Translations under genes and position numbers: made by a program | Shown here: piece by piece, positions 3,434-22,726 of the stretch | Position numbering within the stretch: position 1 is the stretch's first letter | How the letters are laid out: every line of letters begins with the position of its first letter | Notes under the pieces: generated by a model | Database searches by the model: none | Seen by the model: the letters and a program-made list of their open reading frames with translations, nothing else | Told to the model about the DNA's origin: nothing | Virus record (IMG/VR): IMGVR_UViG_3300013101_000073 | Coordinates: 1-26,031 of that record | Direction: 5' to 3' (one strand) | Length of the DNA stretch: 26,031 nucleotides | Source: a virus

Positions 3434-3450
3434 AACCGATTCGATAATAA
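3432..3450 (+). promoter_or_regulatory. Phage promoter box 1 (T type)
   Basis: AAAACCGATTCGATAATAA, one of six copies of the 19-bp box WAAACMGAWTCGAWAWWAW. It overlaps the upstream stop codon and ends 18 bases before the ATG at 3469. No conserved -35 sequence is seen upstream, so the box itself would be the recognition site. The promoter function is inferred from its repeated intergenic position. Confidence 0.65.
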
Positions 3451-13792: not shown

Positions 13793-13815
13793 CCCCTCAC
13801 TCTGAGGGGCTTATT
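13793..13815 (+). terminator. Terminator at the end of the NAD operon
   Basis: CCCCTCA pairs perfectly with TGAGGGG around a CTC loop, followed by the T-rich CTTATTAATT. The stem is strong but the T tract is interrupted. It lies seven bases after the NAMPT stop and six bases before promoter box 3. Confidence 0.75.
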
Positions 13816-13820
13816 AATTC

Positions 13821-13839
13821 AAAACAGAATCGAAATAAT
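13821..13839 (+). promoter_or_regulatory. Phage promoter box 3 (A type) before the three-way-junction RNA
   Basis: AAAACAGAATCGAAATAAT, identical to box 4 over the first 16 bases. It ends eight bases before the first base pair of the structured RNA at 13848, so the RNA would start almost exactly at the junction's closing helix. Confidence 0.68.
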
Positions 13840-13847
13840 ATCACAAA

Positions 13848-13936
13848 GCGGGTCATCCGATTCGAGTGTATGTAATGTTGGTCGGATATACAAGGTGTGG
13901 GTCTTTAGCGAAACCTTCACACCTGGACCCGCACCA
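13848..13936 (+). ncRNA. Three-way-junction RNA with tRNA-acceptor-like end
   Basis: Three perfect helices are visible. P1 is GCGGGTC (13848-13854) with GACCCGC (13926-13932). P2 is ATCCGA (13855-13860) with TCGGAT (13882-13887). P3 is AGGTGTG (13893-13899) with CACACCT (13918-13924), with an inner GGT/ACC extension. Junction strands are 0, 5 and 1 bases. P1 has seven pairs and is followed directly by ACCA, like a tRNA acceptor stem with discriminator and CCA. No T-arm or anticodon arm of normal size is present, so it is not a standard tRNA. The next ribosome-binding site (GGAG, 13938) starts two bases later. It may be a tRNA mimic, a processed small RNA or a leader switch for the RNA ligase operon. 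Confidence 0.6.
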
Positions 13937-13949
13937 TGGAGATGATTAC

Positions 13950-14102
13950 ATGAGAGAAGTTGAAGAATCATATACAACACTGAGGTATCTATTGTATACA
14001 TTAAATTTAATACCCGGGAGTGGACGATTAATATTAGGTGAAGATACCTATTTCATGAGAATCAACGAGTTTAATTTCTGTGACCACTGGGGGAAACTAT
14101 GA
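13950..14102 (+). CDS. Microprotein, probable VLxxLKII family (copy I)
   Basis: A 50-residue protein. ATG 13950 is used because GGAGATG (13938-13944) precedes it; reading further upstream in the same frame would run through the structured RNA. The core LRYLLYTLNLIPGSGRLIL is followed by a strand-like aromatic end (TYFMRINEFNF). It overlaps the RNA ligase start by four bases, so translation of the ligase is probably coupled to it. Function unknown. Confidence 0.66.
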   Translation: MREVEESYTTLRYLLYTLNLIPGSGRLILGEDTYFMRINEFNFCDHWGKL

Positions 14103-15223
14103 GTGAAGAAAGTGGATCAACATATAAAGTACCAATGACTAAAATATTAAAGATTAATGAACATCCAAATGCGGATAGACTAGAGATAGCTACAGTGTAT
14201 GGATTTCAAGTTATTGTTAAGAAAGATACTTATAGTGAAGGTGATGAGGTATTATATGTACCAATAGATTCAGTCTTACCTCAAGATATAGAAGATCACC
14301 TCTTTCCGCCTGAAGCTAAGATTAAACTACATAAACATAGAATCAAGCAAATACGGATTCGTAAGATTGCTTCACAAGGTATGCTTATTCCTATAGCTGA
14401 AATGGAAACAGTAAAAGATATCAGAATTAGAGAGCTCGAAGGGGATTACTCTGAGAAACTGGGAATAACTAAATATGAACCACCAACACGCGGAAGTTCT
14501 TTTGGAACCGTTGGTAAAAAGATTAAGAAGAATGAACATTCACAATTTGATAAATTTGGTGGATTAAATAATATTAAATGGTTTCCATCTATGTTTACTT
14601 CAGAGGAAGAAATTGTTCTTCAAGAGAAAATACATGGAACTAATGCTAGAGCTGGTAAGTTGAAATATGAAGCTAATACCATATTAAAGAAAATTAAAAA
14701 GTTATTTAAACTAACACCTGAATATGTATTTTGCTATGGCTCTAATAATATGCAGTTACAAGAGCACAATGACCATAAAGGGTATTATGGAGAAAATATT
14801 TATGGCCAAGTGTTCTCTGGGATTAATGTAGAAGAGAAATTAGATAATGGTGAAATAGTTTATGGTGAAATATATGGAGAAGGTGTCCAGAAGAATTATA
14901 GCTATGGAACTAGAGAAAAGAAGTTCATATTATTTGATGTAAAGAAAGACGGTAAGTGGTTAAGTCCAGATGAGGTATGTGAATTTGCTAAATTGAGAGG
15001 ATTTGACTTAGTTCCTGAAATATATCGTGGTCCATTTAAAGATTTAGATCATGTTAAATCTCACTCACTTGGAGCTTCAATCTTAGCACCATCTCAAAAA
15101 GTAAGAGAAGGGGTTGTAGTAAAAGCTTTACATAACTACAATAATAAGGGTGATGCAGGTAAACGAGCTCTTAAAATTATATCTGAGAAATACTTAGATA
15201 AAGAGCAAACAGATTTCCATTAA
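14099..15223 (+). CDS. RNA ligase with N-terminal OB domain (Rnl5-like)
   Basis: A 374-residue ATP-dependent ligase. Residues 10-125 form an OB-type domain (PNADRLEIATVYGFQVIV and DEVLYVPIDSVLP). The nucleotidyltransferase follows, with motif I EKIHGTN (Lys177 takes the AMP), motif IIIa-like VYGEIYGEGVQ, FILFDV, motif IV EGVVVKAL and motif V RALKI. The OB-first order is that of the Deinococcus Rnl5-type RNA ligase rather than T4 Rnl1 or Rnl2. A likely job is sealing nicked or cleaved RNA such as tRNA broken by host defence nucleases. Its leader carries a tRNA-like RNA, and a metallophosphoesterase that could act on RNA ends follows. Confidence 0.88.
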   Translation: MSEESGSTYKVPMTKILKINEHPNADRLEIATVYGFQVIVKKDTYSEGDEVLYVPIDSVLPQDIEDHLFPPEAKIKLHKHRIKQIRIRKIASQGMLIPIAEMETVKDIRIRELEGDYSEKLGITKYEPPTRGSSFGTVGKKIKKNEHSQFDKFGGLNNIKWFPSMFTSEEEIVLQEKIHGTNARAGKLKYEANTILKKIKKLFKLTPEYVFCYGSNNMQLQEHNDHKGYYGENIYGQVFSGINVEEKLDNGEIVYGEIYGEGVQKNYSYGTREKKFILFDVKKDGKWLSPDEVCEFAKLRGFDLVPEIYRGPFKDLDHVKSHSLGASILAPSQKVREGVVVKALHNYNNKGDAGKRALKIISEKYLDKEQTDFH

Positions 15224-15232
15224 AGGTAGATT

Positions 15233-15862
15233 ATGAAACCTAAATTATATTTTACATCTGATTGGCACATAGGTCATTTCAACTGTTTAGCATTAGATGG
15301 TAGGCCTTTTAAAGACTTGGATCATATGAATGAAATGTTAATTAAGAATTTTAACTTTCTAGTTCCACATCATGGAATAACCTATTTCCTAGGGGATATG
15401 GGGTTTTCTAAAAGTGGATTACTTAAAAAGGTAATAACAAGATTAAATGGTAAGAAAATATTAATACCAGGGAATCACGATGATAAAGGCATGTATGCTT
15501 ACTATGATGCAGGGTTTGACTTTGTTACTGATAAAGCTCAAATAGTCATAGGTAAGAGTATAATTACCATGTCACACTGCCCTTTAAAGGGAATATATAG
15601 AGAAGATACCACTGGAATGGCTAATGCTCTACCTGGTGAGAATTGGCATAGAGAGACTAAGCATAGCAATAGATATGCTATGGATGATTTTGGTCAATTC
15701 CATTTACATGGACACATTCATAGCCCTAATGGTGGGAGATCAAAAAGAATATTAGATCGTCAAATGGATGTTGGTGTTGTGTGTAATGGGTATAAACCTG
15801 TATCTATATCAACAGTTGAGAGTTTTGTAGCTAAGTATAATAATAATAACGGAGGAAGATAA
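15233..15862 (+). CDS. Calcineurin-like metallophosphoesterase
   Basis: A 209-residue enzyme with the full two-metal signature: SDWHIGH (Asp10, His12), GDMG (54-57), GNHDD (80-84), SHCPL (His115) and HGHIHS (159-164). It follows the RNA ligase by nine bases and is itself joined to the next gene by a one-base overlap. Small phage enzymes of this type hydrolyse phosphomonoesters or diesters. A role in trimming RNA ends for the ligase, for example opening 2',3'-cyclic phosphates, is a reasonable inference from position but unproven. Confidence 0.9.
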   Translation: MKPKLYFTSDWHIGHFNCLALDGRPFKDLDHMNEMLIKNFNFLVPHHGITYFLGDMGFSKSGLLKKVITRLNGKKILIPGNHDDKGMYAYYDAGFDFVTDKAQIVIGKSIITMSHCPLKGIYREDTTGMANALPGENWHRETKHSNRYAMDDFGQFHLHGHIHSPNGGRSKRILDRQMDVGVVCNGYKPVSISTVESFVAKYNNNNGGR

Positions 15863-21315: not shown

Positions 21316-21339
21316 ATTGTGAATAATACGATTCTTCTC

Positions 21340-21392
21340 AAGGCATCCACATGAGATATGAGTTATTGTATAAGAGAAATGTGGATGCCCTT
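21340..21392 (+). promoter_or_regulatory. Long leader hairpin of the clpP-like gene
   Basis: GGCATCCACAT (21342-21352) pairs perfectly with ATGTGGATGCC (21379-21389) around a 26-base AT-rich loop. TTCTC just before the left arm could instead pair with GAGAA (21374-21378) at the end of the loop, so two mutually exclusive folds are possible. The ribosome-binding site AAAGGAG lies downstream and outside the helix. There is no T run, so it is not a terminator. A regulatory or stabilising role is inferred. Confidence 0.6.
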
Positions 21393-21409
21393 CAAATAAA
21401 GGAGTATGT

Positions 21410-22097: not shown

Positions 22098-22427
22098 ATG
22101 AGTGAAGAAAATAATGTAACAGATGACGTAGTTAATAAAATTGCAATATCTAATGATGATTGTGACAATGTACGTAAGTACTGTGGACACTTTGGAGTTG
22201 ATAGTAGCGAAGGTTTAGAGGCTGCATTAGCGGGTTTTATAAAAGATAATTCTTTTGAAAATCAACAAGAAGTAAAATTAGAAATATGTAAGTGGATTCT
22301 TGATAGTGCTCATGCATCTTTCAAAGATAGTCTTTGGGATGCACCCAAGAAAGCAGCTGAAGAGGTTGTATTTGATTTGCAATTTGATAAAGATTTAAAA
22401 GATACTCTTTCAGAAAAAGAAGATTAG
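22098..22427 (+). CDS. Acidic hypothetical protein behind promoter box 6
   Basis: A 109-residue, mostly helical, acidic protein with its own promoter box and a strong ribosome-binding site (CTGGAGGAATG, 22083-22093). It contains three Cys residues without a clear metal pattern. The single-gene unit, strong leader and small acidic nature would suit an abundant regulator or inhibitor, but that is inference. It converges with the sigma-like gene, sharing four bases. Not recognised. Confidence 0.7.
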   Translation: MSEENNVTDDVVNKIAISNDDCDNVRKYCGHFGVDSSEGLEAALAGFIKDNSFENQQEVKLEICKWILDSAHASFKDSLWDAPKKAAEEVVFDLQFDKDLKDTLSEKED

Positions 22428-22726
22428 ATTTTTTTCTTTTGTTGATAGAAATAATTATCAACAGCATTTTCACCACCAGAAGAGGTAACATGATCCATCA
22501 TCTTACCTTTGATTCTATTAGAGGCGTAAGTTGAAAAACTAGCACCCTTTTTAGGATCATAAAGGTGAAATGCATCGATAAGCCCATGCATGCCGTGGGA
22601 ATGAAGATCAGTTAATTCTATATGTGGAGGTAAACCTGACTTATGCAACTTATTAGCGTGCATATTAATTAAAGGTGCATACTCTATGAGCATATCGTTT
22701 AAGTGATCTCTTTTTTTATTAGCCAT
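22424..22726 (-). CDS. Region-2-only sigma factor (FliA/sigma28-like)
   Basis: A 100-residue protein read leftward from ATG 22726. Residues about 14-80 match sigma70-family region 2 of the FliA type: YAPLINMHANKL, ELTDLHSHGMHGLIDAFHLYDPKKGASFSTYASNRIKGKMMDHV. Region 2 binds the polymerase clamp and melts and reads the -10 element. Regions 3 and 4, which read the -35 element, are absent, and the protein ends shortly after. A sigma lacking region 4 would recognise only a -10-like box, as T4 gp55 does, and the six single-box motifs in this window are candidate targets. A TATAAT lies six bases before its ATG, so its mRNA is probably leaderless. Confidence 0.85.
   Translation of the reverse strand: MANKKRDHLNDMLIEYAPLINMHANKLHKSGLPPHIELTDLHSHGMHGLIDAFHLYDPKKGASFSTYASNRIKGKMMDHVTSSGGENAVDNYFYQQKKKI

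Follow-up and report, generated by a model that had tools for sequence, protein, structure and literature searches.

The protein regulated by the gene 32 leader of phage T4 is an OB-fold protein. The leader itself carries a pseudoknot that serves as a translational operator (PMC3014915). 5'-terminal stem-loops of the ompA/papA type stabilize mRNA, according to work cited in PMC3997798, and the Y RNA YrlA lies in bacterial Rsr-Rtc RNA-repair operons (PMC7790460).

We analyzed a viral DNA of 26,031 nt (IMG/VR record IMGVR_UViG_3300013101_000073, positions 1 to 26,031; hereafter the window), in which a predicted three-way-junction RNA precedes a 50-aa ORF and an RNA ligase gene. If it acts as a leader, this RNA resembles that of T4 gene 32 in being a folded stretch of phage mRNA upstream of a Shine-Dalgarno (SD) sequence with a small coaxial pseudoknot, here a candidate. 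It differs in its third hairpin and closing helix, which make it a three-way junction; no A+U-rich operator tail is shown here, the first gene is the 50-aa ORF, and binding is proposed as a model. With the ompA/papA stem-loops it would share a stable helix a few bases from the predicted 5' end and an open SD downstream, although the structure is a junction rather than a simple hairpin and five unpaired 5' bases are predicted. As with YrlA, a structured RNA with a tRNA-like feature adjoins an RNA ligase gene, but a T-loop or cloverleaf domain and an Rfam match are lacking and the ligase is Rnl5-like, not RtcB. A closing 7-bp helix followed by A-CCA recalls a tRNA, of which every other arm and signature is missing.

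Sequence and predicted fold of the junction

The predicted junction occupies positions 13848-13932 of the plus strand. It is closed by P1, a perfect 7-bp helix of GCGGGTC (13848-13854) and GACCCGC (13926-13932). P2 (13855-13887) pairs ATCCGA (13855-13860) with TCGGAT (13882-13887) in 6 perfect base pairs around a 21-nt loop and can be extended by two G-U pairs. P3 (13893-13924) consists of 7 perfect pairs between AGGTGTG (13893-13899) and CACACCT (13918-13924), inside which GGT (13900-13902) can pair with ACC (13913-13915). ACCA follows P1 at 13933-13936. The preliminary description had reported perfect helices of 7, 6 and 7 bp followed by ACCA; these are found in the sequence, and the minimum free energy structure given by RNAfold is the three-way junction (-33.0 kcal/mol). 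As sequence, the junction is confirmed.

None of 200 dinucleotide shuffles was equally stable (z = -3.2), and z was -2.1 when the RNA was folded from the predicted transcript 5' end through the start codon. The 89-nt stretch forms a sharp GC peak (51.7% vs 32.9% for the window) and belongs, among window stretches of that length, to the top 0.01%. A tight junction of three perfect helices of 7, 6 and 7 bp occurs at this single site in the window, the match on the other strand being its own reverse complement. At least one such junction was present in 7 of 208 dinucleotide-shuffled windows (∼3%), a figure that understates chance because the search criteria were chosen after the structure had been seen. 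The placement between promoter and SD is a stronger argument than this statistic.

Two further pairings involve the same bases. UGUAU (13867-13871) in the P2 loop may pair with AUACA (13888-13892), which is the whole P2-P3 linker, to give an H-type pseudoknot of 5 bp (chance expectation 3-10%). Such a pseudoknot could stack on P2 and leave G13925 as the sole unpaired junction base. A competing 10-bp helix with one G-U pair, GGTGTGGGTC (13894-13903) with GACCCGCACC (13926-13935), excludes both P1 and P3 and takes up the 3' strand of P1 including the ACC. Since this helix uses the ACC, its presence after P1 can be explained without any tRNA function. For the 105-nt leader, the junction (-31.0 kcal/mol) is ahead of P2 plus the alternative helix (-24.6 kcal/mol) by 6.4 kcal/mol. 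In longer transcripts the balance between the junction and the 13894-13935 hairpin shifts, and, according to where the 3' end is set, the probability of P1 lies anywhere from 0.07 to 0.86.

Promoter motif, gene order and related leaders

A terminator-like hairpin, CCCCTCACTCTGAGGGG (13793-13809), lies 3' of nadV and parts two units. It is followed by a phage promoter motif, ACAGAATCGA with an A/T-rich tail (13824-13838; clade consensus ACMGAWTCGAWWWWW), copies of which are found with small changes at positions 3435, 8472, 16698, 21300 and 22055 of the window, all on the plus strand and ahead of genes or of a tRNA-Gln. Over 309 kb from the clade, ACMGAWTCGAW has 69 copies in forward and 0 in reverse orientation, where permuted motifs average 0.7 copies; a separate search of seven related records gave 69 matches vs 4 for the reversed pattern, confined to one strand per contig. 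Related records were found via their ClpA protein and they too carry the motif, which was noted in L049-L064. In a 165.8-kb contig it is restricted to about 105-146 kb. The earlier statement that the junction starts eight bases after a promoter box is true for AATAAT (13834-13839); a generic sigma-70 scan gave nothing at this place, and it is the clade-specific motif that is present there. A pyrimidine-A step 18-19 nt past the motif start is kept at 40 of 56 sites, which suggests the transcription start. Here it is C13842 A13843, so that A13843 is the candidate 5' end of the RNA and the junction begins 5 nt past it; by the same step, the tRNA-Gln transcript is predicted to begin 12 nt ahead of the tRNA. 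A sigma-70 protein of 100 aa that comprises region 2 only (22424-22726, minus strand, opposite to its neighbors) and has homologues across the clade relatives is a plausible candidate for the factor that recognizes this promoter. The motif provides predicted start sites for a whole unstudied phage clade, all of whose leaders become testable.

Downstream of the junction, the SD GGAG (13938-13941) stands 8 nt ahead of the ATG at 13950, the start of the 50-aa ORF (13950-14102, plus strand). This ORF had no match in Pfam or PHROG and has a homologue in the related record L039 (∼31-35% identity). A 78-aa frame with a GTG start (13866-14102) runs through the RNA and was rejected; because SD and L039 homologue favor it, ATG 13950 is taken as the real start. 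The RNA ligase gene (14099-15223, plus strand; PF09414 and a PHA02142 OB-fold domain, PHROG 968, Rnl5-like) overlaps the end of the ORF by ATGA, which places the ligase on the same message. Its product matches the Naegleria RNA ligase in the PDB, which we take to be of the Rnl5 type. The next gene 3' of it encodes a calcineurin-like phosphoesterase (15233-15862, plus strand). The junction had been assigned to the leader of an RNA ligase unit; the ligase context stands, but the first gene of the unit is the 50-aa ORF and the ligase comes second. In a fold of the leader plus the initial 40 nt of the ORF the SD was mostly unpaired, and its opening dropped when the ORF was included whole.

ORFs of ∼50 aa are also scattered over the window, at 1824, 1963, 2986, 11404, 12035, 13950, 19370, 25033 and 25583. 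They have in common a short hydrophobic LL..L.I pattern, align weakly and possibly form a fast-evolving family of small proteins.

Among 56 leaders of this promoter class the candidate has the most stable fold, 3.4 sd below the others. Its distance from motif start to ATG is 126 nt, whereas most leaders of the class measure 31-40 nt. In L039 the homologous ORF begins ∼19 nt past the start of the same motif with no structured RNA in between, so the junction looks like an extra block placed between the promoter and the ORF. Directly past the same motif, the leader of a ClpP-like gene forms an 8-bp helix in which 6 of the 8 pairs show compensatory changes among four phages (window 21319-21402; L057 2606-2685; L059 9573-9640; L064 3259-3322), a count matched by 3 of 500 shuffles. 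This compensated helix shows that structured leaders are selected in the clade.

Relatives and known RNA families

The seven related records, mostly fragments, yielded neither a homologue of the junction RNA nor the RNA ligase. Since the ligase did not turn up in them, it and the RNA may have been acquired together. No homologue of the junction RNA came from blastn against phages and plasmids or from scanning viral contigs for an exact 18-mer, and contig scans with the ligase and phosphoesterase proteins gave no relatives. A covariance model built from the single sequence, which detects close copies and misses distant relatives, was negative for the 309 kb of clade sequence and 259 kb of nadV loci, as well as at four genome matches of an 18-mer. 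With the same model no similar RNA was found at four ligase loci, so that by this measure four distant phages have the ligase without the RNA. The junction RNA is best read as an orphan with one known copy. A different well-folded region lies 3' of nadV in the closest nadV relative (L002, 7366-7550), ahead of an unrelated ORF; it folds differently and is not counted as a homologue.

Rfam had no match at the gathering cut-off, in line with the earlier view that no family of this form has been described, and on this result self-cleaving ribozymes and riboswitches were rejected. The best Rfam hit, mir-5391, reached 22.5 bits of the 99.3 required and was discounted, as it follows the alternative hairpin. 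The features of tRNA type that are present at 13848-13936 are the 7-bp closing helix, G+1, the discriminator A and CCA. The T and anticodon arms are indeed missing, as had been noted, and so is the D arm; ARAGORN called no tRNA here and the Rfam tRNA model was unmatched even at E ≤ 10, and tRNA identity was rejected on these grounds. As for RNase P substrate features, G+1 and 3' RCCA are present and the T stem-loop is absent.

Proposed role of the leader and alternatives

The reading that we favor, with about even confidence, is that of a structured leader acting in cis at the 5' end of the message that encodes the 50-aa ORF and the RNA ligase. On the best reading such a leader would affect mRNA stability or translation. 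The sequence and its predicted fold, the promoter motif, the order of the genes and the SD position are shown; the transcription start, the pseudoknot, the stability effect and the translational coupling, and with them which effect applies (stability, translation or regulation), we infer. In favor of a leader are the place of the junction 5 nt past the predicted start, at a strongly supported strand-specific motif, its top rank in stability among the 56 leaders, the mostly unpaired SD, the ATGA overlap, the comparison with L039 and the compensated helix of the ClpP-like gene's leader. The stabilizing 5'-terminal stem-loops (work cited in PMC3997798) and the T4 gene 32 pseudoknot (PMC3014915) are precedents. 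Transcription from the phage promoter would begin at about A13843. The message would start with five unpaired bases and continue into the compact junction, probably tightened by the pseudoknot, which would end 5 nt ahead of the open SD. Most likely the fold near the 5' end would be a physical block that slows 5'-end-dependent mRNA decay, and it would also prevent base pairing between upstream sequence and the ribosome-binding site. Slower decay and a free ribosome-binding site would prolong expression of the first ORF and of the ligase ORF that overlaps it.

Counting against a cis-acting leader, five unpaired 5' bases may suffice for entry of RppH or RNase E. The competing 13894-13935 hairpin in longer transcripts and the reduced SD opening with the whole ORF also speak against it, as does the single known copy, the pairing being known from one sequence. 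If the leader does work in cis, the small set of phage leader structures known so far would gain a junction-type fold, and expression of an RNA-repair ligase would be tied to RNA structure.

More tentatively, the junction might be a regulatory operator or switch, to which a protein (for example the ligase via its OB-fold) or a small ligand binds at the junction or pseudoknot. Binding would shift the RNA between the junction and the 13894-13935 hairpin and tune translation, much as gp32 of T4 binds a leader pseudoknot. This possibility draws on two mutually exclusive folds that use one 3' strand, on a pseudoknot that could occupy the P2-P3 linker, on the OB-fold domain of the ligase and on the phage precedent of the T4 gene 32 leader pseudoknot operator (PMC3014915). 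However, neither fold directly covers the SD, the junction is well ahead in the 105-nt leader, and Rfam gave no riboswitch or operator match. The element would moreover adjoin the 50-aa ORF, not the ligase, and the four distant phages have their ligase without a similar RNA.

We consider it unlikely that the leader yields a free small RNA, tRNA-like at its end, that works in trans as a decoy or as a substrate of CCA enzyme or RNase P. Such roles had been proposed in the preliminary description on the basis of the ACCA and the 7-bp helix; in the face of the missing D, anticodon and T arms and the negative ARAGORN and Rfam tRNA results, a processed tRNA-like small RNA is possible but unsupported beyond the ACCA, of which the alternative helix accounts for the ACC. 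No terminator-like site was found 3' of the ACCA, and no similar RNA stands at the four ligases elsewhere. In its favor are G+1 and the discriminator A beside closing helix and CCA, the same promoter class at the tRNA-Gln of the window, and the tRNA-like YrlA RNA in Salmonella RNA-repair operons (PMC7790460); excision at 13936, with loss of 13843-13936, would also leave a 13-nt UTR of class-typical length with the SD intact.

We think it quite improbable that the junction is a GC-rich insertion that arose by chance or lacks a function, its good fold being put to no use. Its single copy, the lack of relatives in the searches and the shuffled windows that yield such a junction somewhere would fit, but it occupies precisely the interval from promoter start to SD, where leaders of this class are normally short; it is the most stable of 56 and a sharp GC peak. 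Least probable of all is that the junction represents a new class of phage RNA. Such an RNA would be a three-way junction with a pseudoknot and a 3' end of tRNA type, made under a promoter class that also makes the phage tRNA and excised from the ligase message, and it would either decoy tRNA-cutting enzymes or be sensed by the ligase. If it were processed, the RNA would be a phage counterpart of the tRNA-like RNAs in bacterial RNA-repair operons.

Another sequence of the clade immediately follows the promoter motif and precedes clpS (L039 6111-6215, equivalent to L026 from 925 downward on the minus strand). It contains TGGGTTCGATTCCCA between ATGTAT and ATACAT and looks like a degenerate tRNA; ARAGORN and Rfam gave no call for it.
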